From: Streptomyces kanamyceticus
GTDB lineage: Bacteria > Actinomycetota > Actinomycetes > Streptomycetales > Streptomycetaceae
Length of the DNA: 64,000 bases
Assembly: GCF_008704495.1 (NCBI RefSeq)
Contig: NZ_CP023699.1
Span: 8,866,001-8,930,000 of the forward strand
Direction of reading: 5' to 3'
Part shown: in pieces, positions 11,841 through 31,240 of the stretch
How positions within the stretch are numbered: the stretch's first letter is position 1
How the letters are laid out: each line of letters opens with the position of its first letter
Notes under the pieces: generated by a model
Told to the model about the DNA's origin: nothing
What the model saw: only the letters and a program-made list of their open reading frames with translations
Database searches by the model: none
Made by a program: the position numbers and the translations under genes

Positions 11841-11886
11841 TGTGCACTGCTTCTGAACATGTGCACCGCTCCTGAATGTGTGCACC
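11841..11886. repeat. three 19-bp-spaced direct repeats
   Basis: Units beginning TGTGCAC at 11841, 11860 and 11879 follow at exactly 19 bp; the first two are TGTGCACTGCTTCTGAACA and TGTGCACCGCTCCTGAATG, and the third is partial (TGTGCACCGATCC). They lie directly before the TetR start codon and are distinct from the AGAGC operators. Confidence 0.65.
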
Positions 11887-11914
11887 GATCCACCCCCGTG
11901 GCAGACTGGTCCAC

Positions 11915-12622
11915 ATGAGCCGCAACACCAGTGTCACCAAGGGAGCCCGGGCCCGAGCCCGCGAAGAAGTCACCGTGGCGATCAAGGACGAAGCCCGGAG
12001 ACAGCTCGCTGCCGAGGGCGCCGCCAAGCTCTCGCTGCGCGCCGTCGCCCGCGAGCTCGGCATGGTCTCGTCCGCGCTCTACCGGTACTTCCCCAGCCGT
12101 GACGACCTGCTGACCGCGCTCATCATCGACGCGTACGACTCGATCGGCGCCGCCGCCGAGGCCGCGCACGCGGAAGTCGCCGGGCAGGAACCCGTACGCC
12201 GGTGGACGGCGGTGTGCGAGGCGGTGCGTGTCTGGGCGCTGGCGCATCCGCACGAGTACGCGCTCATCTACGGCTCGCCCGTGCCCGGTTACCGTGCGCC
12301 GGACTCCACGGTGCGGGCCGCCGCGCGGGTGGGGCAGTTGCTCGTCGACATCGTGCGGGACGCCCATCGGGGGCGGGGGATCGCCGTGCAGCCCCTGCCC
12401 GGCGGGTTGCGTACGGAGGGGGAGCGGCTCGCGGCCGATCTGGCGCCCGACCTGCCGCCTGCCGCCGCCACCGCGATGGTCGCGGCGTGGGCGCAGCTGT
12501 TCGGCCTTGTGGGTTTCGAGGTGTTCGGGCAGTTCAGCCGGGTGGTCGAGGACCGTGAGGCGTTCTTCTCGCACGCGGTGACGCAACTCGCCCGAGGCGT
12601 GGGGCTGTTGCCGCAGGGGTGA
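11915..12622 (+). CDS. TetR/AcrR family transcriptional regulator
   Basis: A 235-residue repressor-type protein. The N-terminal helix-turn-helix region is clear (LSLRAVARELGMVSSALYRYFPSRDDLLTALI), and the C-terminal part fits the TetR_C_13/WHG-type ligand domain of actinomycetes. ATG 11915 is chosen because the HTH begins about 20 residues later. It is divergent from the deazaflavin enzyme gene and is flanked by palindromic elements that are likely its own operator. Confidence 0.88.
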   Translation: MSRNTSVTKGARARAREEVTVAIKDEARRQLAAEGAAKLSLRAVARELGMVSSALYRYFPSRDDLLTALIIDAYDSIGAAAEAAHAEVAGQEPVRRWTAVCEAVRVWALAHPHEYALIYGSPVPGYRAPDSTVRAAARVGQLLVDIVRDAHRGRGIAVQPLPGGLRTEGERLAADLAPDLPPAAATAMVAAWAQLFGLVGFEVFGQFSRVVEDREAFFSHAVTQLARGVGLLPQG

Positions 12623-12681: not shown

Positions 12682-12703
12682 GCGTACTCCCACGGGAGTA
12701 CGC
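12682..12703. promoter_or_regulatory. 22-bp inverted repeat before two-component system
   Basis: GCGTACTCCC and GGGAGTACGC form perfect 10-bp arms around AC; the flanking C and G extend the stem by one more pair. The element ends 57 bp before the kinase start. A very similar element with the same spacing precedes the ABC exporter operon at 26254-26275. It is probably the binding site of the NarL-type response regulator. Confidence 0.7.
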
Positions 12704-12760
12704 GTGATCACCACGCCCGTCGGACGCCCCCGGGCCGCCGCCCGGTCTAGCGTGGCCGCC

Positions 12761-14074
12761 ATGGACGAGCAGCGCGAACGCAGGGCCGACGGTCCGTCCC
12801 CGGGATGGGGCGGACCGTCGATGTGGCGGCACGGGCCGCCGTGGTGGAACCAGGGCGACGGCGCGAGCGGGGGCCGTCGGCTGCCCTGGCTGACGACGCT
12901 CGCGCTCACCGTGTTCGTCCAGATCGGCTCCGGGTTCGCCGGGCACGCCCAGAGCGGACGCGAGCAGCTCGACCCCTACGCCAGGGTGCTCCTGTTCCTG
13001 GCCACGGCGGTGCTGCTGTTCCGGCACCGCTTCCCGCGGTCCGTCGCCTGGGCCACCGCCGGACTCACACTGATCTACATCGGCGCCGGATACCCGTACG
13101 GACCCGTCTTCCTCGCCGTCGCCGTGGGCTGCTTCGCCGCGGTCGTGGCGGGCCACCGCCGTGCGGTCTGGAGCGCCGTGGGCGCGCTGTGGGCCGGACA
13201 CCTGCTGATCGCGCACTGGCTCTACCGGTGGCTGCCGCCCGGCGACGACGGCGCGAGGCCCTGGAGCGAGGAGGTCGCGGTCGCCGTCTGGGTCGTCGCG
13301 ATCGTGGCGGTGTCCGAACTCGCCCGCGTGCGCCGTGAACAGTGGGTCAAGGAGGGCGCCGAGCGCGCGCAGGCCGCCAGGCGGCGTGCGGACGAGGAGC
13401 GGCTGCGGATGGCGCGCGAGCTGCACGACGTGCTCGCGCACAGCATCTCCGTCATCAACGTCCAGGCGGGCGTGGGCCTCGCCCTGCTCGACTCCGACCC
13501 CGAACAGGCCCGCACCGCGCTGACCACCATCAAGGCGGCGAGCAAGGAGGCGCTCGGCGAGGTGCGCCAGGTCCTCGACACCCTGCGCGCCCCCGGCGAC
13601 GCGCCCCGCGCCCCCGCGCCGGGCCTCGACCGGCTCCCCGAACTCGTCGAGCAGGCGCGGAGCACGGGCCTCACCGTCGACGTCACCACCGAGGGCGCCC
13701 GCGCGAAACTGCCGCCCGGTCTCGACCTCGCCGCGTTCCGCATCGTCCAGGAGGCGCTGACCAACGTCGTACGGCACTCCGTCTCACGCCACGCGCGCGT
13801 GCTGGTGCGCTACGACAAGGCGAAGTCGGACCGCGGCGCGCCTGGCAACGCCGCCGCACTCACCCTGCGCATCGACGACGACGGCCCCGCCACCGGCACC
13901 GACGCGGGCGGCAGCGGCAACGGACTTGCCGGGATGCGGGAGCGCGCCGCGGCCCTGGATGGCACGATCGAGGCGGGCCCGCGCCCGGACGGCGGCTTCC
14001 GCGTGACCGCCGTACTGCCCCTGGTGGCGGACCGGGACGCCACGACCCGCACCGCACCCCGGGAGGACCAGTGA
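12761..14074 (+). CDS. two-component sensor histidine kinase (NarL/DesK type)
   Basis: A 437-residue membrane kinase. A Trp/Pro/Gly-rich N-terminus precedes about five hydrophobic segments between residues 45 and 200, then a HisKA_3 domain with the phospho-acceptor His222 in ELHDVLAHSISV, an N-box (EALTNVVRHS) and G-box (GNGLAGMRERAAALDG) of the ATPase domain. The sensing part has no large extracellular loop, which suggests detection of membrane state or a membrane-active compound. The last codon overlaps the response-regulator start (GTGA), so the two are co-translated. Confidence 0.92.
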   Translation: MDEQRERRADGPSPGWGGPSMWRHGPPWWNQGDGASGGRRLPWLTTLALTVFVQIGSGFAGHAQSGREQLDPYARVLLFLATAVLLFRHRFPRSVAWATAGLTLIYIGAGYPYGPVFLAVAVGCFAAVVAGHRRAVWSAVGALWAGHLLIAHWLYRWLPPGDDGARPWSEEVAVAVWVVAIVAVSELARVRREQWVKEGAERAQAARRRADEERLRMARELHDVLAHSISVINVQAGVGLALLDSDPEQARTALTTIKAASKEALGEVRQVLDTLRAPGDAPRAPAPGLDRLPELVEQARSTGLTVDVTTEGARAKLPPGLDLAAFRIVQEALTNVVRHSVSRHARVLVRYDKAKSDRGAPGNAAALTLRIDDDGPATGTDAGGSGNGLAGMRERAAALDGTIEAGPRPDGGFRVTAVLPLVADRDATTRTAPREDQ

Positions 14075-14736
14075 TCCGCGTACTGCTCGCCGACGACCAG
14101 TCCCTGGTCAGGGCAGGCTTCAAGGCGCTCCTCGACGCCCAGGCGGACATCGCGGTGGCGGGGGAGGCCGCGGACGGCGAGGAGGCGGTGCGGCTGGTGC
14201 GCGAGCTGCGCCCCGACGTCGTCCTGATGGACATCCGCATGCCGCGGCTCGACGGCCTCGCGGCGACCCGGCGCATCACCGAGGAGCCGGACCTGGACGG
14301 GGTGAAGGTGGTCATGCTGACCACCTTCGAGCTCGACGAGTACGTCTTCGAGGCGATCCGCGCCGGGGCGTCCGGCTTCCTCGTCAAGGACACCGAGCCG
14401 GACGAACTGCTGCGCGCCGTAAGGGCCGTGGTCGAGGGCGACGCGCTGCTCTCGCCGGGGGTGACGCGCCGTCTCATCGCCGAGTTCGCGGCCCGCTCCA
14501 AGGAGCCCGCGGCCGCCGACGCGCTCGGCGAACTCACCGAGCGGGAGCGGGAGGTGATGGCGCTGGTCGGCGTCGGCCTCACCAACGAGGAGATCGCCCG
14601 CCGCCTCGTCGTCAGCCCGCTCACCGCGAAGACCCACGTCTCACGCGCGATGGTCAAACTCCACGCCCGGGACCGTGCCCAGCTCGTCGTCACCGCGTAC
14701 GAGACGGGCCTGGTGCGGCCCGGCTGGCTGGGATGA
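14071..14736 (+). CDS. two-component response regulator (NarL/FixJ type)
   Basis: The 221-residue partner of the preceding kinase. The receiver domain holds the acidic pair (LADDQ), the phosphorylation site Asp54 (VLMDIRMP) and the conserved Lys of FLVKDTEP; the C-terminal LuxR-type helix-turn-helix is ELTEREREVMALVGVGLTNEEIARRL...TAKTHVSRAM. GTG 14071 overlaps the kinase stop. Proteins of this class bind inverted repeats; the 22-bp repeat before the kinase and its twin at 26254 are candidate sites. Confidence 0.93.
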   Translation: MIRVLLADDQSLVRAGFKALLDAQADIAVAGEAADGEEAVRLVRELRPDVVLMDIRMPRLDGLAATRRITEEPDLDGVKVVMLTTFELDEYVFEAIRAGASGFLVKDTEPDELLRAVRAVVEGDALLSPGVTRRLIAEFAARSKEPAAADALGELTEREREVMALVGVGLTNEEIARRLVVSPLTAKTHVSRAMVKLHARDRAQLVVTAYETGLVRPGWLG

Positions 14737-14786
14737 CGGCCCGTACGAAGGAGAAGTCGAAGCGGTAGGGAGGAAGCGTCGGGTTC

Positions 14787-15236
14787 CTACCCGCTCGCGG
14801 GCGGCTCCAGTACGAAGACGGGGATCACCCGGTCGGTCTTCTCCTGGTACTCGGCGTACTGCGGAAACGCGGCGACCGCGCGCTCCCACCACTCGGACTT
14901 CTCGTCCCCGGTGATCTCACGGGCCGTCATGTCCCGGCGTACGGCCCCGTCTTGGAGCTCCACGTGCGGGTCGGAGATGAGGTTGAAGTACCAGACCGGG
15001 TGGCGGGGGAAGCCGCCCTTCGAGGCCACGGCCGCGTACCGCCCCTCGTGCTCGACGCGCATCAGCGGGATCTTGCGGATCTTGCCGCTCTTCGCGCCCC
15101 GCGTCGTGAGGATGACGACGGGCAGGCCCGTGTCCCAGAGCGTCGATCCCTCGGTGCCGCCCGAACTCTCGTACAACTCGACCTGATCGCGGATCCATTG
15201 CGCCGGACTCGGTCCGTACTCGCCCTCAAGAGGCAT
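14787..15236 (-). CDS. nitroreductase/deazaflavin-dependent oxidoreductase family protein
   Basis: A second small split-barrel protein of the Ddn-like family (149 residues). The diagnostic block is [19 protein letters not shown], followed by [20 protein letters not shown]. Such enzymes bind F420 or FAD and reduce a wide range of compounds; the physiological substrate is not known. ATG 15236 ([11 protein letters not shown]) is preferred because an AAGG box precedes it, but GTG 15245 is possible. It shares only the family, not close identity, with the gene at 11196. Confidence 0.85.
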
Positions 15237-15324
15237 CGCCTTCACCCCATCGTCACGTCATGAAGTGTGCTGCCCCACAGGTGGTCGGGTAAAACGCCCG
15301 GCGCCCACGACCGGGGAGATACGG

Positions 15325-15368
15325 TGGCCGCTCCCGGCGGGCGAGCAATTGCCTGCCAGGAGCGGCCA
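15325..15368 (-). terminator. strong stem-loop after MFS gene
   Basis: TGGCCGCTCC pairs with GGAGCGGCCA, and after one mismatch a further seven pairs (one G-T) close an 8-base loop. The hairpin starts 18 bp past the MFS stop codon on the minus strand and has no T-run, which is usual for Streptomyces terminators. Confidence 0.75.
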
Positions 15369-15385
15369 GTTGGGGCGTCAAGGGG

Positions 15386-16906
15386 TCAGTCTCGGGCGGC
15401 CACCGGCTCCCGTTCCACCGGCTCCAGGTCTGCCAGCCCCTGATCCGCCGCCCCCTGCGGCACCGACTTGGCGACGACGGCACTCTCCCGCGTACGCGAC
15501 GTCCGCAGCCCGGTGAGCATGACGAGGAGTCCCGCGACCGCGATGGCGGTGACCACGATCAGGCCGGGCCGGAAGGTGTCCAGGACTGCCTGCGGCGACG
15601 CGTCGCCGTCGTGCGACGACGCGGTGACCACGGCGGTGACGACCGCGAGGAAGATCGCGCCGCCCACCTGGATCGAGGTGTTGAGCAGGCCGGACACCAT
15701 GCCCTGCTCGTCGTCGTCCACGCCGTTGGTGGCCTGGATGTTGAGCGAGGGGAAGACCAGGGCGCACGCGAAGCCGAGCAGGATCATCGACGGCAGGACC
15801 ACCGCCGCGTACGCCGGGGTCAGACTGATCCGGAGGAAGAGCGCGTAGGAGGCAACGAGCAGCACGAACCCGGCCACGATGACCCGCGGGGTGCCGAACC
15901 GGTCGATGACCGAGCCGACCTTCGTCGACGACAGGGCGACGAGCGCGCCCGCGGGCAGGAAGGCGAGCGCGGTCTCAAGGGCGGACCAGCCGAGCAGCGA
16001 CTGGAAGTACTGCGTGGCCAGGAACTGGAAGGAGACGTAGCCGCCGAAGAACGTCATCGCGCCCAGCTGTGCCCGCAGTTGAGGTCCCGAGCGCAGTACG
16101 CCGAGCCGGATCAGCGGGCTGGCGCTGCGCAGTTCGACGCGTACGAAGACGGCGAGCAGCGCGGCGGCGACGAGGAACGACAGGAGCGTGCGGGCCGAGG
16201 CCCAGCCCGCCTCGGGGGCCTCCACGACGGTGAAGACGAGCAGCAGCATGGCCGCGGTGCCGGTGATGGCGCCCGGGATGTCGTAGCCGCCGGTGTTCTT
16301 CTCGCGGGCGCTGCGCGGGATCAGCTTGATGCCCGCGACCAGCGCGAGCAGGGCGATGGGCGCGGGCAGCAGCATGGTCAGGCGCCAACTGGCCTCGGTG
16401 AGCAGGCCGGAGAGGACCAGGCCCATGGAGAAGCCGGTGGCGGCGCAGGTGGTGTAGATGGTGAGCGCGCGGTTGCGGACCGGGCCCTCGGCGAACGTCG
16501 TGGTGATGATGGAGAGACCGGCGGGTGCGGTGAACGCGGCGCTCAGCCCCTTGATGAAGCGGCTCGCGATGAGCAGTGGCCCGGAGTCGACGAAGCCGCC
16601 GAGCAGCGAGGCGAGCGCGAAGACGGCGAGCGCGATCAGGAAGACCCGGCGGCGGCCGAGCAGGTCGGCGGCCCGTCCGCCGAGGAGGAGGAGTCCCCCG
16701 TAGCCGAGGATGTAGCCGCTGACGACCCACTGCAGGGTCGAGGTGGAGAGGTCGAGTTCGGAGCCGATGGAGGGCAGGGCGACGCCGACCATCGATACGT
16801 CGAGTGCGTCGAGGAACATCGCGGCGCAGAGCACCAGCAGAGTGCCCCACAGACGCGGGGTCCAGCGCTCCGGGGACGTGGAGACAGCTGTGAGCGGAGA
16901 AGTCAT
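15386..16906 (-). CDS. MFS drug exporter (DHA2/EmrB type, 14 TM)
   Basis: A 506-residue major facilitator with about 14 hydrophobic segments. The N-terminal motif LDALDVSMVGVALPSIGSELDLS, the loop GRAADLLGRRRVF (MFS motif A) and the segment GFSMGLVLSGLL (motif C) place it among proton-driven multidrug or antibiotic exporters. ATG 16906 is used. It is divergent from a MarR regulator with a shared inverted repeat between them, the classic arrangement of a MarR-controlled efflux pump. Confidence 0.9.
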   Translation of the reverse strand: MTSPLTAVSTSPERWTPRLWGTLLVLCAAMFLDALDVSMVGVALPSIGSELDLSTSTLQWVVSGYILGYGGLLLLGGRAADLLGRRRVFLIALAVFALASLLGGFVDSGPLLIASRFIKGLSAAFTAPAGLSIITTTFAEGPVRNRALTIYTTCAATGFSMGLVLSGLLTEASWRLTMLLPAPIALLALVAGIKLIPRSAREKNTGGYDIPGAITGTAAMLLLVFTVVEAPEAGWASARTLLSFLVAAALLAVFVRVELRSASPLIRLGVLRSGPQLRAQLGAMTFFGGYVSFQFLATQYFQSLLGWSALETALAFLPAGALVALSSTKVGSVIDRFGTPRVIVAGFVLLVASYALFLRISLTPAYAAVVLPSMILLGFACALVFPSLNIQATNGVDDDEQGMVSGLLNTSIQVGGAIFLAVVTAVVTASSHDGDASPQAVLDTFRPGLIVVTAIAVAGLLVMLTGLRTSRTRESAVVAKSVPQGAADQGLADLEPVEREPVAARD

Positions 16907-16927
16907 GGGCAGTAAGGTACATGCACA

Positions 16928-16961
16928 TGCATTGGATGCAAGCGCATTTAATTCCAATGCA
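16928..16961. promoter_or_regulatory. probable MarR operator
   Basis: TGCATTGGA (16928-16936) and TCCAATGCA (16953-16961) are perfect 9-bp inverted arms in the 89-bp space between the divergent MFS and MarR genes. The region also has TTGCAT-like sub-repeats. Position and symmetry fit a MarR dimer site that covers both promoters. Confidence 0.65.
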
Positions 16962-16995
16962 ACAAAGTGCGGATTCTCTGCTACCTTGCGATGTC

Positions 16996-17397
16996 ATGGC
17001 GGCGAAAACGGCCGAGCAAGGGCTCGTGGACCAATGGCGCGACATCCTCGCGGTGCATGCGCGTACCCTGTGCGAGCTCGATCGTGAGCTCCATCCGCAC
17101 GGCCTGGGAGCGAGCGACTTCGAGGTGCTCGACGTCCTCGCGGAGGGCTCGTCGGACGACGGCGGCTGCACATTCCGCGTCCAGGAGATCTCCTCGCACG
17201 TCCATCTGAGCCAGAGCGCGCTCTCCCGCCTGATCGGACGTCTGGAGAAGGACGGCCTCGTGGAGCGCGGCATGTGCAGCGAGGACCGGCGCGGCGTGCG
17301 CGTCTCCCTGACGGACAAGGGGCGCGAACTCCACACGGAGGTGCGGCCCTTGCAGCGGGCGGTCCTCAAGCGCATGCTCGCGGGGACTACGGACTGA
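16996..17397 (+). CDS. MarR family transcriptional regulator
   Basis: A 133-residue winged-helix protein: FRVQEISSHVHLSQSALSRLIGRLEKDGLVERGMCSEDRRGVRVSLTDKG gives the recognition helix and the D-R-R wing typical of MarR. ATG 16996 is chosen as the first start giving a normal family length. The divergent MFS exporter is the likely target. Confidence 0.88.
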   Translation: MAAKTAEQGLVDQWRDILAVHARTLCELDRELHPHGLGASDFEVLDVLAEGSSDDGGCTFRVQEISSHVHLSQSALSRLIGRLEKDGLVERGMCSEDRRGVRVSLTDKGRELHTEVRPLQRAVLKRMLAGTTD

Positions 17398-17424
17398 CGC
17401 TCGCGCGGGGCGCGTCGGCGGCGG

Positions 17425-18180
17425 TCAGCTCATGACGATGGCCGACTTCTCGCGCCACAGCGCCGCGAGCGAACGGTCCCCGCTCACCTCGGGGAACGGC
17501 AGTCGGTTCCACAGCGCCGGATAGAGCCGCGCCGCGGGACCGGACACCTCGCAGTCGGCGGGAGCCGTCGAGCCGCGCTCGGTGACGGGCGGCCCTTCCG
17601 AGAGCCGCACCGTCCAGCTCCCCTCCCCGGGCGCGTCCGTGGCCCGCACCCGCAGCACCCGCGGTACGTCGCTGCGCACCTGACTCCTGGACCGCGCGTG
17701 GAAGCCGAACAGCAGCTCCTCGATCCCGTCCACCGCGAACGCGGTGCGGATCGGCGAAAACGACGTACCGCCGCGCGCCGACTCGGCGTCCATCCGGTGG
17801 ACCGTCGTCTCGTGCGCCTGCCGCCGGGCCCAGAAGGCCAGCGGCGAGGGGGCGGGCAGGAAGGCCCAGCACTCGACGTCCGGCGGCGCGCCGTTGAGCG
17901 TCTCGACGAGCGCGGCGTGCCCCTGCCGGAACCAGCCGACGAGCGCGTCCCCTTCGAGATCGGGAACCTCGCCGCCGAGCTGGTACGCGGTGCGCCGCTC
18001 CGTGATGAACGCGGCGGCCCAGCGGTGCACCATCCCGGTGTGCCGCAGCAGGTCCCGCACCTGCCAGCCGGGACAGGTGGGCACCTTCGCCTCGGTCCCC
18101 GCCTCCTCGGCGGCCCGCGCGAGCAACTGGCCTTCGTCGTCGACCACTTGGATGAGTGCGGAAATCTCCATCGTCGTCAT
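17425..18180 (-). CDS. maleylpyruvate isomerase N-terminal (DinB-like) domain protein
   Basis: A 251-residue protein of the actinobacterial MDMPI family: the N-terminal four-helix DinB-like part has VPTCPGWQVRDLLRHTGMVHRW, and later ARRQAHETTVHRMDAE, which carries the His residues of the metal site. Members are related to mycothiol-dependent maleylpyruvate isomerase, but most have unknown substrates. ATG 18180 is used. No catabolic operon surrounds it, so a specific role cannot be given. Confidence 0.8.
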   Translation of the reverse strand: MTTMEISALIQVVDDEGQLLARAAEEAGTEAKVPTCPGWQVRDLLRHTGMVHRWAAAFITERRTAYQLGGEVPDLEGDALVGWFRQGHAALVETLNGAPPDVECWAFLPAPSPLAFWARRQAHETTVHRMDAESARGGTSFSPIRTAFAVDGIEELLFGFHARSRSQVRSDVPRVLRVRATDAPGEGSWTVRLSEGPPVTERGSTAPADCEVSGPAARLYPALWNRLPFPEVSGDRSLAALWREKSAIVMS

Positions 18181-18245
18181 GCGGAAGATTCTGGCGGGAG
18201 ATTCCGCTGGATGGGGCGAGCCCGAACCGGAACCTCCGGATGATG

Positions 18246-19526
18246 TCAGACCGTTTCCGTACGCTCCGTACGCTCTGTACGTGCGGCGGGCTCCGCATGC
18301 TCCGTACGCTCGGTGTGCCGCGTCGCGAAGCCGATGAGCGCGGCCGTGGCGGCGAGCAGCGCGACGCTGGTCAGCGCCGCGGGCAGCGAGTACCAGTCCG
18401 CCATGAAGCCGATCAGCGGCGGCCCCACCAGCATGCCGCCGTAGCCGAGCGTCGAGGCGGCGGCGACCCCGCCGGGACCGGCGAGCGCGCCCGCGCGTTC
18501 CACGGCCACGGGGAAGATGTTGGCGAGTCCGAGCCCGGTGACGGCGAAACCGGCGAGCGCGAGGCCCGTCGAGGGGGCGAGCGCGCCGAGCAGCATGCCG
18601 ACGCAGGCCGTGGCGCCGCCGCCGACCACCGTGCGAGTCCTGCCGAGGCGTTCGAGGAGCGTGGTGCCGGAGAGGCGCCCGATGGTCATGGCGAAGGCGA
18701 AGCAGGAGTAGCTCGCGGCGGCCACGCCCGGGTGCGCGTGCAGGTCCTGCTCCAGGTGCAGCGGGCCCCAGTCCGCGATCGCGCCCTCGCCGTACGCGGT
18801 GCACAGCGCGATGAGCCCGAAGACCAGCACGAGGCCGCGGGTGCGGCGGTCCATGCGGTGGGGCGCCCGGGCGCCAGGGGCCGGGCGCGCGTCCGGGTTC
18901 GAGGAGTGCTCGCGCAGCCGGTCCGGCGCGCCGTCCCGCAGCAGTACGGGCGCGGTGACCGCGGTGACCGCCAGGCCGACGACCGTGATGCCGAGCAGGT
19001 GGGGCGTGGGGGAGAGGTGGCCCGCGACCAGGCCGCCGAGGCCTGCGCCGATCATGCCGCCGAGGCTGAACGCCGCGTGGAAGCTGGGCATCACGGGGCG
19101 GCGCAGCGCGGCCACCAGATCGACCGCCGCGCTGTTCATCGCGACGCTGATCCCGCCGTACGCCGCGCCGAAGAACAGCAGGACGAGGCCAAGTACGAGC
19201 ACCGAGTCGGTCAGCGGCGGCAGCGCGACGCTGAGCGGGAGCAGCACACCGCAGGCCACGGTCGTCTGGAGGCTGCCGTAGCGCCTGCAGAGCCGTCCCG
19301 TGAGCGTCATCGTGATCACCGCGCCCGCGGAGACGGCGAGCAGCGCGAGGCCCAGCTGGCTCGCCGACGCCCCGGTCTGGTCCTTGATCGCGGGGATGCG
19401 GACGACCCAGCCCGCGAAGACGAAGCCGTCGAGCGCGAAGAAGACGGTCAGCGCGACGCGCAGGCGGCGCAGGCCGGGGGCGGTGGGCCGCGGCGCTGCG
19501 GTCCCGAGTTTGTTTCGTAGCGGCAC
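18246..19526 (-). CDS. MFS transporter
   Basis: A 426-residue, 12-segment major facilitator with motif A-like sequence (TLTGRLCRRYGSLQ) and a long middle loop rich in Pro and Arg. It is related to the fucose/sugar-permease-like and drug-like MFS group often paired with ROK regulators. It is divergent from such a regulator at 19668, 141 bp away. The last 20 residues are a low-complexity tail of RTE/HTE units encoded by tandem CGCTCCGTA-like repeats at about 18256-18316. Confidence 0.85.
   Translation of the reverse strand: MPLRNKLGTAAPRPTAPGLRRLRVALTVFFALDGFVFAGWVVRIPAIKDQTGASASQLGLALLAVSAGAVITMTLTGRLCRRYGSLQTTVACGVLLPLSVALPPLTDSVLVLGLVLLFFGAAYGGISVAMNSAAVDLVAALRRPVMPSFHAAFSLGGMIGAGLGGLVAGHLSPTPHLLGITVVGLAVTAVTAPVLLRDGAPDRLREHSSNPDARPAPGARAPHRMDRRTRGLVLVFGLIALCTAYGEGAIADWGPLHLEQDLHAHPGVAAASYSCFAFAMTIGRLSGTTLLERLGRTRTVVGGGATACVGMLLGALAPSTGLALAGFAVTGLGLANIFPVAVERAGALAGPGGVAAASTLGYGGMLVGPPLIGFMADWYSLPAALTSVALLAATAALIGFATRHTERTEHAEPAARTERTERTETV
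18256..18316. repeat. 9-bp imperfect tandem repeat in 3' end of MFS gene
   Basis: Copies of a CGCTCCGTA-like 9-mer run through the end of the gene and encode the R-T-E-R-T-E tail. The repeat keeps the frame because the unit is 9 bp, so copy number may vary without harming the transporter core. Confidence 0.55.
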
Positions 19527-19667
19527 AAAGTCACACTAGGGGTGTTCCCGGGTCGCGCACAACACGATGGCGCGATGGCCGAAGATGTGCGGTCGCCGAA
19601 GGGCGGAGGAGGAGCGGATGACGGCTGAACGGCGAGGCGGTGTACGGATCATGGGAGACTCGCCCAC

Positions 19668-20900
19668 ATGAACGGCAAGGCTGCCCCCCGCGGCGAGGGG
19701 GAAGTGTCCACGCGCACCCGTCTGGAGCGGGGGCGCGGCGCGCTGGGTCCCGCGCTCGAACTCGTCCACACCGGCCGGGCCCCCACCCGTGCCGTGCTCA
19801 CCGCCGAGCTCGGGGTCACCCGCGCCACCGCGGGTGCCGTCGCCGCCGAACTGGAGGCGCTCGGCCTGATCAGGATCGACGCGAAGCCGAGCGCGGCCGC
19901 GGGTTCGCAGGGCAGGCCCTCGCACCGGCTCTCCGTCGTCGAGACGGGGCCCGTCGCGCTCGCCGCGCAGGTGCACGCGGACGGGTTCCGGGCGGCCCTG
20001 GTCGGGCTCGGCGGCCGCATCGTGGCGACCGCGCCCGGCTGCGAGGCCGTCGGCGCCGACCCCGCCCAGGTGCTCGGATCGGTGGTCGAGGCGGGCGCCC
20101 GGCTGCTGCGCGAGACCGGCAGGCGGTGTGTGGGCGCGGGTCTCGCGGTGCCGTCGGCGGTCGCCGAGCCCGAGGGCACGGCGCTCAATCCGCTGCACCT
20201 CGCCTGGCCAGCGGGCTCGCACGTCCGTGAGATCTTCGCCGATCGCGTCCGCGAAGCGGGCATCGAGGGACCGGCGTTCGCCGCCAACGACGTGAACCTC
20301 GCCGCGCTCGCCGAGCACCGGCACGGCGCCGGGCGCGGCGCCCGCGACCTGCTCTGTGTGGCGACCGGGCACCGCGGGGTCGGCGGCGCCCTGGTCCTCG
20401 ACGGCCGTCTGCACACGGGCAGTTCGGGCCTCGCCCTGGAGGTCGGGCACCTCACGGTGAACTCCGAGGGGCAGGCCTGTTACTGCGGCGGCCGCGGCTG
20501 CCTCGACGTGGAGACCGACCCCCTCGCCTTCCTGACGGAGGCCGGGCGCGCGCCGGGCCCCGAGGGTTTGCTCGTACAGGCTCGCGAACTGATCCGCGGC
20601 TCCTACGCGGACCCCTCCGTGCGCTCGGCGGCCGAGGTCCTCATCGACCGCCTCGGCCTCGGGCTCGCGGGTCTGGTCAACATCCTCAACCCCGACCGGA
20701 TCATCCTGGGCGGCCTGCACCGCACGCTCCTGGAGGCGGACCCGGAGCGGCTGCGCGCCGTCGTCGCCGACCGGAGCCTGTGGGGGCGCAGCGGCGGCGT
20801 GCCGATCCTGGCGTGCACGCTGGACTACAACAGCCTGGTGGGGGCCGCCGAGCTGGCCTGGCAGCCGGTGCTCGACGACCCCTTGGCGGCGCTGGGTTAG
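19668..20900 (+). CDS. ROK family transcriptional regulator/sugar kinase-like protein
   Basis: A 410-residue ROK protein with an N-terminal winged helix (RAVLTAELGVTRATAGAVAAELEALGLI), an ASKHA-fold body, and the ROK zinc motif EVGHLTVNSEGQACYCGGRGCLDVE. The N-terminal DNA-binding domain marks it as a repressor of the NagC/XylR type rather than a simple kinase. The divergent MFS transporter is its likely target, with a sugar or glycoside as effector by analogy. Its stop codon overlaps by 4 bp the stop of the convergent MFS gene. Confidence 0.9.
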   Translation: MNGKAAPRGEGEVSTRTRLERGRGALGPALELVHTGRAPTRAVLTAELGVTRATAGAVAAELEALGLIRIDAKPSAAAGSQGRPSHRLSVVETGPVALAAQVHADGFRAALVGLGGRIVATAPGCEAVGADPAQVLGSVVEAGARLLRETGRRCVGAGLAVPSAVAEPEGTALNPLHLAWPAGSHVREIFADRVREAGIEGPAFAANDVNLAALAEHRHGAGRGARDLLCVATGHRGVGGALVLDGRLHTGSSGLALEVGHLTVNSEGQACYCGGRGCLDVETDPLAFLTEAGRAPGPEGLLVQARELIRGSYADPSVRSAAEVLIDRLGLGLAGLVNILNPDRIILGGLHRTLLEADPERLRAVVADRSLWGRSGGVPILACTLDYNSLVGAAELAWQPVLDDPLAALG

Positions 20901-22123
20901 ACGGGCTGGGTGCTGCGCTCGGCGGGCTGGTCGTCCAGTCGGGCGGGCTCGGCCGCGTCATCGGCGCCGGATCGGTCCGCCGTCCGGCGGTGCAGCAGGT
21001 CGGGAAGGAGCGTGCCGAGCCCGAGGACCGCGAGGCCCGCGCCGATCCACAGGGGCGCCCGCAGGCCGTGCGCGTCGATGGCGGGTCCGCCGACGGACGT
21101 GGCGATGATGACGCCGAGCGTGATGAACGACGAGTGGACGGTGTTGACCAGCGGCCGCGCGTTGCTGGCCCGCTGCACCCGGGTGATCAGGGCCGGGTTC
21201 ATGGTGACGCCGACCAGGCCGACGCCCAGCATGAACAGCACGGCGGGGACGGTCAGTTGGGCGAAGAGCGCGAACCCGACGAGGAAGGTCAGGTTGAGCG
21301 CGAGACCCACCACGAGTACGGGCAGGGCGCGGCGGTCGGCGAGCCTGCCGACGACGGTGTTGCCGATGACGGTGGCCGCGCCGTACGCGATGAGCAGCAG
21401 CGGGACGGTGCCGGTGGAGAAGCCCGTGACCTTGGTGAGGATCGGGTTGAGGTAGCTGAAGGCGGAGAAGGTCGCGCCGATGGTGAAGGTGCTGGTGATC
21501 ATGACGAGCCAGAGGCGCGGGCTGCGGAAGGCGCCCACCTCCTGACGGAGGCCGCCACCGGCCTCCTCGGCCTCGCCGTCCGTGTGCGGCACGAACGCCA
21601 GCGTGGCGAGAGCGGCCAGTACGGTCAGCGCGGTGATGGCCCAGAACGCGGCGCGCCAGCCCAGGTGTTCGCCGACGACGGTGGCGAACGGAAGCCCGAG
21701 CAGGGTCCCCAGCATCAGCCCGTTGAGGACCACGGCGACGGCGCGGCCGCGCACTTCGGGGCGGGTGATGCGCGAGCCCAGCGAGATGGAGACGCCGAAG
21801 AACGCCTGCGAGGCGATGCCGGTGAGCACGCGGGCCACCAGCATGGTGCGGTAGTCGGGCGCGAGCGCGGCGAGCACGTTGCCCGCCAGGAAGATGCCGA
21901 ACAGCACCATCAGGGCGGACTTCTGACGCATCTTCAGTACGGCCACGGTGAGGACGGGTCCGCCGAAGGCCATCGCCGCCGCGAAGGCGGTGATGAGATA
22001 ACCGATCTCGGGGATGGTGGCGTCGAGCCCGTCGGCCATCTGGGGCATCAGTCCTGCGACCACGAATTCGCTGGTCACCATGGCGAAGATGCCGAGGGCC
22101 AGTACGTATACGGCGCGGGGCAT
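20897..22123 (-). CDS. MFS exporter (AraJ/Cmr-like, 12 TM)
   Basis: A 408-residue transporter of the drug:H+ antiporter-1 group: VLALGIFAMVTSEFVVAGLMPQMA, motif A-like loop GRAVAVVLNG, and 12 hydrophobic segments, with an acidic hydrophilic C-tail. AGGAG precedes ATG 22123. A TetR gene lies just upstream on the same strand. Chloramphenicol-type efflux is typical of close families; the actual substrate is unknown. Confidence 0.88.
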   Translation of the reverse strand: MPRAVYVLALGIFAMVTSEFVVAGLMPQMADGLDATIPEIGYLITAFAAAMAFGGPVLTVAVLKMRQKSALMVLFGIFLAGNVLAALAPDYRTMLVARVLTGIASQAFFGVSISLGSRITRPEVRGRAVAVVLNGLMLGTLLGLPFATVVGEHLGWRAAFWAITALTVLAALATLAFVPHTDGEAEEAGGGLRQEVGAFRSPRLWLVMITSTFTIGATFSAFSYLNPILTKVTGFSTGTVPLLLIAYGAATVIGNTVVGRLADRRALPVLVVGLALNLTFLVGFALFAQLTVPAVLFMLGVGLVGVTMNPALITRVQRASNARPLVNTVHSSFITLGVIIATSVGGPAIDAHGLRAPLWIGAGLAVLGLGTLLPDLLHRRTADRSGADDAAEPARLDDQPAERSTQPV

Positions 22124-22149
22124 GGGTGGGCTCCTGTCAGGCATGAGTA

Positions 22150-22167
22150 TTGGATAGATCAGTACAA
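22150..22167. promoter_or_regulatory. possible TetR operator before MFS gene
   Basis: An 18-bp imperfect palindrome (TTGGATAGATCAGTACAA, 12 of 18 positions symmetric, centred on GATC) lies 27 bp before the MFS start in an unusually A/T-rich stretch. Its place between the TetR stop and the MFS start suggests regulation by that TetR protein. Confidence 0.4.
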
Positions 22168-22235
22168 AAAAAGGGCATGCGGAGGCATGGAGGCGCGGAG
22201 GGCCCTGTGGGGGCGGTTCCGGCGGCTCGTGCCGG

Positions 22236-22835
22236 TCAGTGCACCGCCAGCGCGTCGAGCGCGGTCCCGGCGATCGCCTCCAGGGCGGCGCGGTCGGCGC
22301 CGCCCTGCGCGGAGACGCGCATGCCGCCGATGACGGCGTTGAGGTAGCGGGCGAGGGTGTCGGCGTCGCGCTTCGGCGTGATGTCACCGGCGAGCTGCCC
22401 CGACCGGACGACGGCGCCCAGTGACGCGAGCCGGAACTCCAGGTCGCGCGCCAGCATCCCGGCCGCCTCCGCGTCGCGGGAGGCGAGCCCGACGGTCGTG
22501 TTCACGGTCAGGCAGCCGATGCTGTGATCGTCCTGCCGGGTCGCGAACTCGCCGTCGATGACCCGGTCGAACAGTGCGCGCAGCCGCTCCGTCGCGGGCC
22601 GCTCCACGTCGTCGAGGATCGCGGTCTGACCGGCGTTCATCGTCTCCATGTAGCGGGCGAGGGCCCGCCGGAAGAGGTCGTGCTTGCTGCTGAACGTGTT
22701 GTAGATGCTGCTGCGGCCCAGTCCGGTGGCTTCGCACAGGTCCTGGGTCGAGGTGGCCTCGTAGCCCTTCACCCAGAAGGCGTGCATCGCCGCGTCCAGG
22801 GCCCGCTCCTCGTCGAAAGTCCTCGGTCGGGCCAT
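22236..22835 (-). CDS. TetR family transcriptional regulator
   Basis: A 199-residue regulator with the AcrR/NemR-type HTH ALDAAMHAFWVKGYEATSTQDLCEATGLGRSSIYNTFSSKHDLF. The C-terminal part includes GCLTVNTTVGLA, seen in the NemR-like/TetR_C_16 group that senses electrophiles through a Cys; one Cys is present there. It is placed 112 bp upstream of the MFS exporter on the same strand, and probably controls it. Confidence 0.88.
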   Translation of the reverse strand: MARPRTFDEERALDAAMHAFWVKGYEATSTQDLCEATGLGRSSIYNTFSSKHDLFRRALARYMETMNAGQTAILDDVERPATERLRALFDRVIDGEFATRQDDHSIGCLTVNTTVGLASRDAEAAGMLARDLEFRLASLGAVVRSGQLAGDITPKRDADTLARYLNAVIGGMRVSAQGGADRAALEAIAGTALDALAVH

Positions 22836-23060
22836 GGGGGAACCGTACCCGTTTTGGAACGTGCGGTGCAATACGGCGTGGGGCGCACGGTGCGATACGT
22901 GCGCAAGGGCTGGCGCGCGCCGGGCGAGAACATCGGAAGGTCACATGCCGGTGGCATTCCAGTACCGGTTCCCGCACGATGCCCACGAGGGGGCCTCCCC
23001 CCGGCGCCCGGCGGGTTCACCATGAGCCTCCTCCTACCGGCACTTCCCGAGGAGGTCACG

Positions 23061-23642
23061 ATGCGCCGACTCATCGCAGCCGTCGTCCTCTCAGTCCTCG
23101 CACTCGGCACCACGGCCTCCTGCGGTGGTGATGACGGCGGCGTCGTCACCGACCCGAAGTCCACGTCCAAGTCGGCCGATTCCAAGGGCGGTTCGAAGTC
23201 CAAGAAGCCCGACGCGGACGACGGCAAGGCCGAGCTCGGCGACACGCTCTCGCTGAAGGGCCTGAACAGCGGCACCCGGCTCGACGCGACCATGGAGAAG
23301 TTCGTCGCCTCCGCGGAGTCGTCCAACGATTTCCTCAAACCGGCCGCGGGCAAGAAGTGGGTCGCCGCCCGCCTGAAGCTGGTCAACAAGGGAGGCAAGA
23401 CCTATCAGGACGCCCCCAGCAACGGTGCGCAGGTGACCGACAAGAAGGGGCAGGGCTTCCATGCCACCGTCGTCGAGGTGACCGCTGGTCCTTCGATGTC
23501 CGCGTCCCTCAAACTTCCGCCCGGTGACACGGCCAGGGGCTGGCTGGTCTTCGAGATCCCGAAGTCGTCCGTCGTCGTGAACGTGCAGTGGACACCCGAT
23601 TCGGGGTTCGCCCCCGACACCGGCCAGTGGAAGGTCAGCTGA
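23061..23642 (+). CDS. lipoprotein, DUF4352-like
   Basis: A 193-residue secreted lipoprotein: a short signal peptide ends in the lipobox TTASC at residue 21, followed by a Ser/Lys/Asp-rich linker and a DUF4352-type immunoglobulin-like domain (KKWVAARLKLVNKGGKTYQDAPSNG...GDTARGWLVFEIP). This domain is common in Gram-positive surface proteins of unknown role. GGAGG before ATG 23061 decides the start. Its 3' end overlaps the convergent phosphotriesterase gene by 8 bp. Confidence 0.8.
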   Translation: MRRLIAAVVLSVLALGTTASCGGDDGGVVTDPKSTSKSADSKGGSKSKKPDADDGKAELGDTLSLKGLNSGTRLDATMEKFVASAESSNDFLKPAAGKKWVAARLKLVNKGGKTYQDAPSNGAQVTDKKGQGFHATVVEVTAGPSMSASLKLPPGDTARGWLVFEIPKSSVVVNVQWTPDSGFAPDTGQWKVS

Positions 23643-24561
23643 CGCCCCACCGCACCCCGAACGCCCGCCCCGGATTGACCGTCAGGATCCGCTCCACCAG
23701 CTCCTGGCCCACGGCGAGTTCGAGACGGGGACGCACTCCGCGCAGCAGGTGGGGCATGCCGGGGCCGCCGTTCACCGAGCGGGCCCCCGCCGTGGTCGTG
23801 TCACCGCCCAGGAGCAGCCGGTCGCCGAAGCCCGCTTCGGCGAGCGCCCGTACGGCGTCCGGCATGCGCCAGTCCGTGGCGTGGTGGGCGCGGGACGGAC
23901 CGTCGAAGGCCAAATAGGCGCCTGCTTGCGCAGCCTGATGGTGGATCAGCAGGTCGGGAGAGCGATTCAGGTGGCCGAGGACCACTCGCTCCGGCGGGAC
24001 GTCCAGTTCGCCGCAGAGCAGGTCGAGTACGTCCAGGGCGCCGGTGCCCAGCTCCAGGTGGACGGTGATCGGGGCGCCCGTGGCGTGGTGCGCCTCGGCC
24101 GCAGAGCGCATGGTCCACCGGGCGTGCGCGTCGAGCCCGTGGAAGCCGCCCGCGACCTTGATGAGACCGGCCCGCACGCCCGAGTCGCCGATGCCTGCGG
24201 TGAGTTCGCGGATGAAGACGTCCGTGAGACCCTCGCCGCGCAGCTCGTCGAGCAACTCCGGTGTGTAGTGGGCCGCTTGGTGCAGTCCCGTCGCTGCGAC
24301 GATCCGTATGCCCGTCGATCGGGCCAGCGCGGGCAGCCGTCCGGCACGGCGCCCCATCCCGTACGGAGTCCACTGGATGACGCTCTGCCCGCCCGCCGCG
24401 CCGAACGCCGCCAGCTCGCGGGCCGCCGCGTCGGCCGAGTCCAGCTCCTGGCCCGGCAGTTGAGGACTCCTGATGAACACGTGGTCATGCGCGTCACACG
24501 TGCCGAGCTCGGCAGGGGGGATGTCGCCGAGGACCGTCCGTACGGTGCGGGGCGCGCTCAC
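23635..24561 (-). CDS. phosphotriesterase/lactonase family metallohydrolase
   Basis: A 308-residue amidohydrolase-superfamily barrel. The N-terminal metal motif H-x-H is in CDAHDHVF, the bridging residue region is IKVAGGF (Lys), further His are in VHLELG and LGHLNRS, and the last metal Asp is in LLGGDTTT. The family includes phosphotriesterase-like lactonases and AttM/PHP enzymes. GTG 24561 overlaps the stop of the DUF4865 gene (GTGA), so the genes are coupled. Substrate is unknown; a small lactone is plausible given the cupin and TetR in the operon. Confidence 0.82.
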   Translation of the reverse strand: MSAPRTVRTVLGDIPPAELGTCDAHDHVFIRSPQLPGQELDSADAAARELAAFGAAGGQSVIQWTPYGMGRRAGRLPALARSTGIRIVAATGLHQAAHYTPELLDELRGEGLTDVFIRELTAGIGDSGVRAGLIKVAGGFHGLDAHARWTMRSAAEAHHATGAPITVHLELGTGALDVLDLLCGELDVPPERVVLGHLNRSPDLLIHHQAAQAGAYLAFDGPSRAHHATDWRMPDAVRALAEAGFGDRLLLGGDTTTAGARSVNGGPGMPHLLRGVRPRLELAVGQELVERILTVNPGRAFGVRWGVS

Positions 24562-25142
24562 CACTGCCGACCCCGCGTCAGCTCGTCCCGCTCCGGTGCC
24601 GACAGGTGCAGGACGTCGAAGACGTCACCGACGCCGTGCGGCGAAGCGTGGTCCCAGAGCGAGAAGTGCACCGCCTCCCAGGCATGCGGGTCGATGGCGA
24701 CCGCCGCGCTCACCGCCCCGTCCTGCCGGGCCAGCCGCTCCGCCTCGTGGGCGAGTTCGACGGCGTACTCCGGCAGTGGGGTGCGTGCCGGTATCCGCTG
24801 CGCGCGTCGGATCGCCGCCTTGGGCGTGGCCGATGCGGCGGCTCCCTCCTCGTAGGCGAGGACCGTCCAGTTCCGTACGTCGGGCCGTCCGAAGTCGTCC
24901 GCGAGACCCCTGAACCCCGGCCCCCAGAGGAAGGAGTTCATGCCCTCGGGGCTGTTCCAGAGGTAGAACGGCGCGTACTGGTTCACGGGCGAGCCGTCCC
25001 TGCCGCGTTCGCGCGTCAGATACGCCTTGAGGCCCAGCCCGGGGAAGTCGTCGAGCAAGTGCCCCTTCGTCGCCACCCGGTGGCGGATGATGCCCATGTC
25101 GTAGTCGGCGGGCAGGGTGATCTCGTACTGCATGGCGTGCAC
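24558..25142 (-). CDS. DUF4865 family protein
   Basis: A 194-residue protein matching the DUF4865 pattern: MQYEITLPADYDMGIIRHRV at the start, LGLKAYLTRERG, and NQYAPFYLWNSPEGMNSFLWG. Such proteins usually sit beside TetR or LysR regulators and small oxidoreductases; their activity is unknown, although the fold is suggested to be ferredoxin-like. GTG 25142 is used because GAGGAG stands six bases before it; the nearer ATG 25133 would be too far. It is the middle gene of the cupin operon. Confidence 0.78.
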   Translation of the reverse strand: MHAMQYEITLPADYDMGIIRHRVATKGHLLDDFPGLGLKAYLTRERGRDGSPVNQYAPFYLWNSPEGMNSFLWGPGFRGLADDFGRPDVRNWTVLAYEEGAAASATPKAAIRRAQRIPARTPLPEYAVELAHEAERLARQDGAVSAAVAIDPHAWEAVHFSLWDHASPHGVGDVFDVLHLSAPERDELTRGRQW

Positions 25143-25189
25143 GGCGTACTCCTCAAAGAGTGTGTGGGGACTGTCGGTTGGCTACCGGG

Positions 25190-25585
25190 TCAGCTGTTGG
25201 GGTCGGCGTCGTCGACCAGTTCGCCCCAGGTCACGGTCGTGCCGTCCACGGCCGCCTCGACCGCCGCCAGATGCGTCATGAACGTGCGCGGCCCCGCCCC
25301 GTGCCAGTGCCGCTCGCCCGGCTCGATCCAGACGGTGTCGCCCGCACGGATCGGCTCGACGGGACCCCCTTCGCGCTGTACGCGTCCCTCGCCCTCGGTG
25401 ACGTGGAGGACCTGGCCGTGTGGATGGGTGTGCCAGGCCGTGCGGGCGCCCGGTGCGAAGTGCACGCTGAACATCCGCAGCCGGGAAGGGAGTTCGGGTG
25501 CGGCGATCTCGTCGAGCCAGACCGCGCCGGTGAAGTGCTCGGCGGGGCCCTGCTTGCTGTCCGGGCGGGTTCGGGTGATGTGCAC
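25190..25585 (-). CDS. cupin domain protein
   Basis: A 131-residue single-domain cupin. Motif 1 is G-x5-HxH (ARTAWHTHPHGQVLHVTEGEG) and motif 2 is GDTVWIEPGERHWHG; together they supply the metal-binding His. It resembles the HNL-type (R)-selective cupin/carboxymuconolactone-associated proteins found next to small-molecule detoxifying genes. It begins with GTG, 31 bp from the TetR stop. Confidence 0.85.
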   Translation of the reverse strand: MHITRTRPDSKQGPAEHFTGAVWLDEIAAPELPSRLRMFSVHFAPGARTAWHTHPHGQVLHVTEGEGRVQREGGPVEPIRAGDTVWIEPGERHWHGAGPRTFMTHLAAVEAAVDGTTVTWGELVDDADPNS

Positions 25586-25616
25586 CGTAGGGATCCTTGC
25601 TCGGTGGTGGGGTGGG

Positions 25617-26189
25617 TTACGGGCGGGCGGGTGCGGCCGCCCGTAGCAGCGCGAGCAGCCCGCGCACGCCCGCGTCGAACGCGGCGGGCGATCCGGCAGA
25701 ACGGGCCAGGACGTAGCCGCCCTGGACCGTCGCGACGATCGCCGAGGCGATCTCGCCCGCGTTCAGGGACGGCGTGAACTCGCCCTGGTCGCAGCCCTCT
25801 TGGACGATTCCGGCGAGCCGGTCGCGCAGCCAGTCGAGGGTCTCCGTGACGGGTGCGCGCAGCTCGTCGCTCGCGATGACGTCGGGGTCCATCGTGAGCC
25901 TGCCGACCGGGCAGCCCCGCAGCACGTCGCGCTCGCGCAGCAGGTACGCCTCCACGCGCTCGTACGCCGAACCGGGCCCGGCGAGCACGGCTTCCGCGGT
26001 GGCGCGCATCTCCTCGGCCGTGCGCCGGATCGCGGCGAGTGCCAGATCCGGCTTCCCCGCGAAGTGGTGGTACATGCTGCCCTGGCCCGCGCCCGCGTGC
26101 TGCTGGATGGCCTTGGGGCTCGTGCCCACGTAACCGCGCTCCCACAGGAGCTCGCGGGTGGCCTCGATCAGTCGCTCCGGAGTGCTCAT
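25617..26189 (-). CDS. TetR family transcriptional regulator
   Basis: A 190-residue repressor-type protein, HTH in LIEATRELLWERGYVGTSPKAIQQHAGAGQGSMYHHFAGKPDLALAAI; the C-terminal part fits the YxaF/LmrA-type TetR_C_6 group. It heads the minus-strand operon TetR-cupin-DUF4865-phosphotriesterase. A 22-bp palindrome directly before its start codon is its likely operator. Confidence 0.9.
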   Translation of the reverse strand: MSTPERLIEATRELLWERGYVGTSPKAIQQHAGAGQGSMYHHFAGKPDLALAAIRRTAEEMRATAEAVLAGPGSAYERVEAYLLRERDVLRGCPVGRLTMDPDVIASDELRAPVTETLDWLRDRLAGIVQEGCDQGEFTPSLNAGEIASAIVATVQGGYVLARSAGSPAAFDAGVRGLLALLRAAAPARP

Positions 26190-26196
26190 GAGGACA

Positions 26197-26218
26197 CTGT
26201 ACATACTAGTAGGTACAG
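26197..26218. promoter_or_regulatory. 22-bp palindromic TetR operator
   Basis: CTGTAC and GTACAG flank the core TACTAGTA; 20 of 22 positions are symmetric. It begins 8 bp upstream of the TetR ATG, so the bound repressor would block its own operon. Confidence 0.75.
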
Positions 26219-26253
26219 AAGTCAGTCATCGAGGGAGCAGCCGGGCGCGCCAT

Positions 26254-26275
26254 GCGTACTCCCGCGGTGGTACGC
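26254..26275. promoter_or_regulatory. 22-bp inverted repeat before SHOCT-ABC operon
   Basis: GCGTACTCCC-GC-GGTGGTACGC has the same left arm, spacer length and total length as the repeat at 12682-12703 before the two-component system; the right arm differs at two bases. It ends 90 bp before the SHOCT gene. Confidence 0.65.
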
Positions 26276-26365
26276 GGGGTGCCGCTGCCCGTACGACGAC
26301 GTGGGGGCCCTGCCGGAGCGACCTTGGAGGCGTCGGAGAAACCGCTCTAGAGGAGATGACTTCAG

Positions 26366-26659
26366 ATGCAGACCCTGGCGCAATGGGACGGCGGGCCCGG
26401 CCCGTGGATCCTCTTCTTCCCGCTGATCTGGGCGGCCGTCGTCGTCGGCGCCGTCACCCTGCTCCGCCGCACCGTGTGGCGTGGCCGCCGCGGACCCTTC
26501 CGGGCCGCGGGGCACCCGGCGGGCCTCGGGGAGCAGTCGCCCATCGCCGTGCTCGGCCGCCGTTTCGCCTCCGGCGAGATCGACGAGGACGAGTACTGGC
26601 GCCGACTGACCGTCCTGAACGAGGAGTTCGGCCGTACCTCCAAGGGCGGCGCGGCATGA
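26366..26659 (+). CDS. small membrane protein with SHOCT domain
   Basis: A 97-residue protein with one membrane segment (about residues 14-34) and a C-terminal SHOCT domain (LGRRFASGEIDEDEYWRRLTVL). SHOCT motifs are short C-terminal helices thought to help oligomerisation. Its stop overlaps the start of the ABC ATPase (ATGA), so it is made in step with the exporter and may be an accessory part of it. Confidence 0.83.
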   Translation: MQTLAQWDGGPGPWILFFPLIWAAVVVGAVTLLRRTVWRGRRGPFRAAGHPAGLGEQSPIAVLGRRFASGEIDEDEYWRRLTVLNEEFGRTSKGGAA

Positions 26660-31062: not shown

Positions 31063-31240
31063 GACGCTCCGCCCCCTAGTGCGCTTCGGTGAATCGCTTC
31101 GATCGGGACGGGCGTCCCGCTGCGTCGCAGTCTGCCCGCACCCGGCGTCGAGCACCAGTACGCATGACGACGTCCCGCCAGGTCGAAGAGACCTTTACCG
31201 AGGCTACTCCTGACCTTTGCCGACCGCTGCGCCAGCAGTG

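Follow-up and report, generated by a model that had tools for sequence, protein, structure and literature searches.

Which regulator reads the two nearly identical inverted repeats found in one region of the Streptomyces kanamyceticus chromosome, and which genes would it control through them? The stretch of DNA analysed here, 64,000 nucleotides in length (positions 8,866,001 to 8,930,000 of the forward strand of contig NZ_CP023699.1, RefSeq assembly GCF_008704495.1), is called the window, and its own numbering is used below. One repeat stands before the genes of a sensor histidine kinase and a NarL-type response regulator, and the other stands before a gene for a small membrane protein with a SHOCT domain, which is followed by the genes of an ABC exporter. 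An earlier note on this DNA proposed that the regulator drives the exporter and itself. Our comparisons make it very probable that the NarL-type regulator encoded at 14071-14736 has its operators in the 22-bp palindromes, through which it would regulate its own synthesis and control the SHOCT operon. Judged from these sequences, it is the SHOCT membrane protein that forms the constant target, and the exporter follows it in about half of the species that have it.

Site 1 (12682..12703, forward strand) is a 7-2-7 palindrome, GCGTACTCCC-AC-GGGAGTACGC, and is the predicted response-regulator operator of the kinase-regulator promoter. Site 2 (26254..26275, forward strand), the predicted operator of the SHOCT promoter, is an imperfect palindrome, GCGTACTCCC-GC-GGTGGTACGC. 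When the sequence was re-read, both repeats lay where the earlier note had placed them, at exactly the distances it gave from the start codons of the kinase (ATG at 12761, 57 bp) and the SHOCT protein (ATG at 26366, 90 bp), and they differ by two base changes, as it had said. We scanned with tolerance for mismatches to the 22-mer GCGTACTCCC-N2-GGGAGTACGC, using the reversed pattern, shuffles or scrambled palindromes as controls. At three mismatches or fewer, there are two matches in the window versus none in 100 dinucleotide shuffles, and five sites in the whole S. kanamyceticus genome (label G000; 10,133,897 bp in one contig) versus two for the reversed pattern. The earlier note had suggested such a genome scan as a check, together with a comparison of orthologous promoters. 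In the entire 10.13-Mb genome only sites 1 and 2 reach two mismatches or fewer, and 0.09 sites would be expected from base composition. Shorter patterns behave differently: a search with the inner 18 bp, three mismatches allowed, does not discriminate (54 genomic sites and 54 for the control), and the 16-bp core TACTCCCNNGGGAGTA at up to one mismatch finds four genomic sites including site 1 (control, one). Site 2 is not among these four because its right half is degenerate. In other words, the motif is restricted to the two units at 22 bp and is not so restricted at its 16-bp core.

Both sites are kept in other Streptomyces, so the second check also bore the earlier note out. In our sample of 150 genomes of the genus, the 22-mer at two mismatches or fewer occurs in 55 genomes, and the reversed pattern in one. 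When these 66 sites were classified by their neighbours, 35 lay upstream of the kinase ortholog (including one at a contig end, placed by synteny), 12 before SHOCT, five before an MMPL gene, two before other two-component systems (one of which was judged from the regulator match alone), one in the interval separating a regulator gene from an RND gene, and 11 at other places. Orthologs were then collected independently of the motif, with a kinase match in 105 and a SHOCT match in 101 of the 150 genomes. After copies with identical last 100 bp had been merged, and late alignment starts, starts with less than 150 bp of DNA around them and the kinase fragment of genome G008 had been left out, 103 kinase and 99 SHOCT promoters were scored. 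A site with five mismatches or fewer is present in 100 of the 103 kinase promoters and 86 of the 99 SHOCT promoters, where 20 scrambled palindromes averaged 0.90 and 0.85, respectively, and the reversed pattern gave 0 and 0. The worst kinase promoter, that of G058 (eight mismatches), has its site 5' of the stretch that was scored. The position of the site is constrained: of 102 kinase promoters, 42 have 57 bp between site and predicted start (searched from -40 to 200 bp), and of 98 SHOCT promoters, 89 have 82-118 bp (searched from 75 to 160 bp). The two genes also occur together: 97 genomes have both and 41 have neither, with kinase only in eight and SHOCT only in four (Fisher p ~4e-24, not corrected for relatedness). 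At six loci the SHOCT gene lies 134-302 bp 3' of the regulator gene, and each of these has its own site. A separate observation is that the two promoter sets show opposite asymmetry, the kinase promoters holding the gene-proximal half GGGAGTA almost invariant and the SHOCT promoters holding the distal half TACTCCC while the proximal half varies.

Beyond the site itself, the promoters share a layout. A -35-like GACG box lies at +20 to +23 after site 1 (12723..12726, forward strand), its bases each kept in 95-96% of the 100 kinase promoters that were aligned, and a GACG box lies at the same +20 to +23 after site 2 (26295..26298, forward strand), its bases each kept in 99-100% of the 98 SHOCT promoters, so that its spacing from the site is identical in the two sets. 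At +45 to +50 a -10-like element follows, which is TAGCGT in the kinase promoters (12748..12753, forward strand; each base in 85-90% of the 100 aligned) and a weaker version in the SHOCT promoters. From the position of TAGCGT, kinase transcription would start about at the ATG, giving a leaderless transcript, and the site would therefore be centred near -68. Directly after site 1, at 12704-12712, the sequence GTGATCACC is conserved in kinase promoters and includes the perfect palindrome GTGATCAC; the SHOCT promoter consensus differs at these positions.

A composite of the site, 22 bases and GACG is found without mismatch twice in the S. kanamyceticus genome and in 90 of the 150 Streptomyces genomes, and its reversed control in 0 of 150. 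Counted by eye, the composite has 147 matches across the genus: 136 in the kinase and SHOCT promoter sets, one that is the G058 site, two at contig ends (G126 and G112) beside genes that, by eye, are those 5' of the window kinase, one before another two-component system (G123), six elsewhere and one untraced. A class-wide search of 394 genomes gave a match in 29, of which 26 are Streptomyces, and the three others are about what background gives (the control matched four genomes outside the genus).

Is the exporter, then, what the second site is for? We scored the six best permease candidates per genome at E 1e-200 or better, a procedure by which a diverged permease could be missed, and found the permease in 48 of the 150 genomes, of which 47 also belong to the 101 with SHOCT (the match in G118 spans residues 349-856 only). 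One genome, G041 (locus L293), has the exporter permease and gave no match in the SHOCT search. Of the 54 remaining SHOCT genomes, we looked through 1.4 to 4.5 kb in 53 (G032, at a contig end, was left out); 48 of these have no ATPase or permease above 100 bits and five have partial genes. In 41 of the 48 exporter-less loci, a HATPase gene that lies 3' of the exporter in the window is found downstream of SHOCT. On a quick kinase-regulator tree, in which the direction of change cannot be told, the exporter state changes at least 22 times among the SHOCT genomes included, and the partial genes suggest that the exporter has been lost repeatedly. The site persists in its absence: 49 of 50 exporter-less loci have two mismatches or fewer at the 11 specified core positions, at which the reversed core has three to five mismatches in 97 of 99 loci. 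Over the whole 22-mer, the difference between loci with and without the exporter is not significant (p = 0.16). On the counts of the permease and the retention of the site where it is missing, we rejected the exporter as the constant target. The claim that the regulator drives the exporter and itself is supported: comparison of sequences establishes conserved paired predicted operators, a shared promoter layout and kinase-SHOCT co-occurrence, all in its favour. It is refined in that SHOCT, and not the exporter, would be the constant target.

The encoded proteins are of the expected classes. The kinase (437 aa; 12761..14074, forward strand) has HisKA_3 and HATPase_c domains, with H222 in the motif ELHDV; among the matches listed, its relatives at 60-72% include those of S. 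antibioticus, S. galbus and S. viridiviolaceus. It scores far under the NarX and NarQ family cut-offs, and reaches 42.8 with the LiaS model against a cut-off of 450. The regulator (221 aa; 14071..14736, forward strand) combines a REC domain (Response_reg, 5.7e-29) with a GerE/LuxR helix-turn-helix (2.4e-15) and has the phosphoacceptor aspartate and acidic pocket (D8, D9, D54, T84 and K106). Compared over its full length with solved structures, it is most like VraR (5hev, E 2.7e-43, the top match), NarL and DevR, and with the NCBIfam equivalog of E. coli NarL it scores 154.2 against a cut-off of 250. The SHOCT protein (97 aa; 26366..26659, forward strand) has, from Pfam, hydropathy and alignment, one hydrophobic stretch and a C-terminal SHOCT domain; its relatives in a protein search are from Streptomyces where the organism is given. 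The exporter consists of an ATPase (26656..27456, forward strand; ABC_tran) and an 856-aa MacB/FtsX-type permease (27453..30023, forward strand; FtsX 8.6e-33, MacB_PCD 2e-25). On the reverse strand 3' of it are the HATPase gene, which is weakly RsbA-like (30056-30535), and a second small gene (30733-31155), both of which adjoin SHOCT in most of the inspected exporter-less loci. Two TetR-family genes border the sites. TetR1 (11876..12622, forward strand; TetR_N and TetR_C_33) lies 5' of the kinase, as a relative does in many related loci, and TetR2 (25617..26204, reverse strand; likely start, by eye, an ATG at 26189) is divergent from SHOCT.

NarL-type dimers are described as binding, when phosphorylated, to heptamers in a 7-2-7 arrangement (PMC4549865, PMC4886647). 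The earlier note had matched a NarL-type regulator with this type of repeat, and the match holds, with a REC and GerE protein on one side and, on the other, inverted heptamers in 7-2-7 geometry at the conserved site, a geometry that site 2 keeps. By analogy, the phosphorylated regulator would bind as a dimer to the two heptamers TACTCCC-N2-GGGAGTA, which are the predicted binding sites. Bound some 68 bp 5' of the transcription start, it would activate its own kinase-regulator operon (positive autoregulation), and the SHOCT operon would be activated likewise. The circuit's constant output would be the small membrane protein with the SHOCT domain, which may work as an effector at the membrane or as the kinase's partner in feedback; according to PMC11237479, membrane localisation is a predicted role of SHOCT-like domains. 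The ABC/FtsX exporter comes 3' of SHOCT, presumably in the same operon, in about half of the SHOCT species, including S. kanamyceticus. Going by protein class, the signal sensed by the kinase is probably envelope or antimicrobial stress.

The S. kanamyceticus genome encodes close paralogs of this regulator, and three of the four core sites at up to one mismatch stand before operons of this regulator, RR-B and RR-D. At RR-B (G000:C1:1762019; regulator 63% identical), the core site is, by eye, about 110 bp before the likely kinase start. At RR-D (6791788; 61% identical), it is 120 bp before an MMPL gene, which the RR-D gene follows. The MMPL transporter at L349:241-2476 has an operator-like site 5' and the related regulator RR-D further on, and similar sites are seen before MMPL in G069, G074, G030, G037 and G119. 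The fourth core site, TACTCCATCGGGAGTA at C1:862438 (L438:439-454), has no clear target gene nearby. For a further paralog, RR-C (64% identical), a perfect palindrome, TACTGCG-CC-CGCAGTA, stands in the gap separating its gene from that of an RND exporter (L435:3401-7386); the pattern TACTGCGNNCGCAGTA at up to one mismatch is found exactly at the RR-C/RND junction in 10 of 30 fetched loci, S. kanamyceticus included, and across the genus it is, by eye, no commoner than its control. The recognition helices of this regulator, RR-B and RR-D are almost identical (SPLTAKTHVSRAM, SPFTAKTHVSRAM and SPLTAKTHVSRIM). Together with RR-C these are, by eye, the four most similar in recognition helix among 30 regulators examined, and the regulators nearest in helix carry like palindromes at their own operons. 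When the 30 regulator loci of about 3.6 kb each were compared, the core at up to two mismatches was present only in this one and that of RR-B, the RR-D core site falling outside its locus.

The common core and the near-identical helices raise the question of cross-talk, in which the sites would be read by, or shared with, RR-B and RR-D. We regard this as unlikely. The kinase and SHOCT genes are kept or missing together, as counted above, and the flanks GCG...CGC with the GACG spacing mark out just these two promoters in the S. kanamyceticus genome. Furthermore, SHOCT sites are weaker in the four genomes with no kinase found (mean core mismatches 1.75), although one of these genomes is incomplete (G050) and another has its kinase promoter at a contig end (G126). 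Somewhat less likely still is that the regulator represses these promoters. NarL itself can activate or repress depending on the promoter, as described in PMC4549865; here, however, the site would be centred about 68 bp 5' of the predicted transcription start, clear of the -35/-10 region, and the poor -10 of the SHOCT promoter is what an activator-dependent promoter would be expected to have.

Site 2 might instead serve the divergent TetR2, or TetR2 alone might control the exporter, as its presence within 600 bp of SHOCT in 52 of 99 loci could suggest. TetR2, however, has a palindrome of its own in the same intergenic stretch, TGTACATACTAGTAGGTACA (26198..26217), a predicted TetR2 operator that is distinct from site 2, lies over the TetR2 start and recurs, with no more than three mismatches, in 51 of the 53 loci that have a divergent TetR2. 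Moreover, among the loci for which more than 500 bp of upstream DNA is available, 45 lack a divergent TetR2 gene inside 600 bp, and nearly all of these keep the SHOCT site, the six in which SHOCT comes after the regulator gene among them. Because of this separate palindrome and these 45 loci, TetR2 is an improbable owner of site 2; it probably autoregulates through its own palindrome, by which the exporter region may have two inputs. As for terminator hairpins or chance, site 1 is a perfect inverted repeat 59 bp after the TetR1 stop codon, as a terminator might be, but we can give this idea hardly any credence. What is conserved at both promoters is the letters and not merely their pairing, scrambled palindromes are not conserved, and no run of T directly follows either site. 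We rejected the hairpin on this base-level conservation, and because site 2 is imperfect and lies between two divergent gene starts; a chance origin was rejected on the window shuffles, the genome and genus scans and the scrambled controls.

Control of both units by the regulator at 14071-14736 remains the explanation we prefer, and several observations weigh against it. Its core is common to paralogous systems, so that another regulator could bind. Site 2 is asymmetric, with its degenerate right half, and 13 of the 99 SHOCT promoters have six mismatches or more. Eight genomes have the kinase with no SHOCT match, and four the reverse. Loci that lack the exporter have a weaker core (a mean of 0.52 mismatches versus 0.13 in those that have it). 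The composite at up to two mismatches is found at 26 places in the S. kanamyceticus genome and the control also at 26, so that weaker targets would be indistinguishable from background. Finally, the predicted sign, activation, is read from the position of the site only.

How does this circuit relate to known ones? As in E. coli NarL/NarP, a REC and GerE regulator is paired with inverted heptamers two bases apart, and TACTCCC fits six of seven positions of the NarL heptamer consensus TACYYMT given in PMC4886647; unlike there, the last base of the heptamer is C rather than T, the kinase falls outside NarX/NarQ, and the targets are others. Envelope stress systems of the VraR/LiaR type are brought to mind by VraR as the regulator's best sequence match among solved structures, and PMC11237479 describes Lia as a two-component system that includes small membrane proteins; the LiaS score, however, sets this kinase apart, and the output differs, being a SHOCT protein that may or may not be accompanied by an ABC/FtsX exporter. 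The exporter resembles those of the MacB/FtsX type in its ATPase and its permease with MacB_PCD and FtsX domains, but the ATPase is separate, the 856-aa permease has two matched stretches per domain, and the MacB equivalog model scores 64.6 for the permease and 192.1 for the ATPase against a cut-off of 966. The MacR box of MacRS, from Streptomyces coelicolor, is TGAGTAC-N2-GTACTCA, the half-sites of which face the opposite way from those described here. MacRS is otherwise similar in being a Streptomyces NarL-type system over membrane protein genes (PMC9739842, PMC10345050). We did not find the present system or its motif described in the open-licence literature, and a description elsewhere is possible; this particular circuit thus appears to be undescribed. 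The type of circuit is well known, and its unusual parts are the SHOCT-centred regulon and the series of operators across paralogs.

I turn last to that series, on which I can only speculate. This NarL subfamily of Streptomyces might consist of parallel modules sharing an operator code, TACTSCS-N2-SGSAGTA, with one regulator each for SHOCT with or without ABC/FtsX, for MMPL and for RND; in the window's module SHOCT, and not the exporter, would be the essential output, retained through repeated exporter turnover, perhaps as the kinase's partner in feedback or as its effector. We hold this as a tentative proposal, somewhat short of an even chance. The half-site appears to track the recognition helix, TACTCCC going with TAKTHVSR and TACTGCG with TVKTHVNR.

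For the genus, a two-component system present in 105 of the 150 sampled Streptomyces gains an operator and a very small regulon, both predicted, together with a candidate for its output. SHOCT domains are called understudied in PMC11237479; the SHOCT gene described here is linked to a sensor of its own and is retained even where the neighbouring exporter is missing. The paralogs form a natural series in which the recognition helix, the half-site and the type of transporter can be related to one another.

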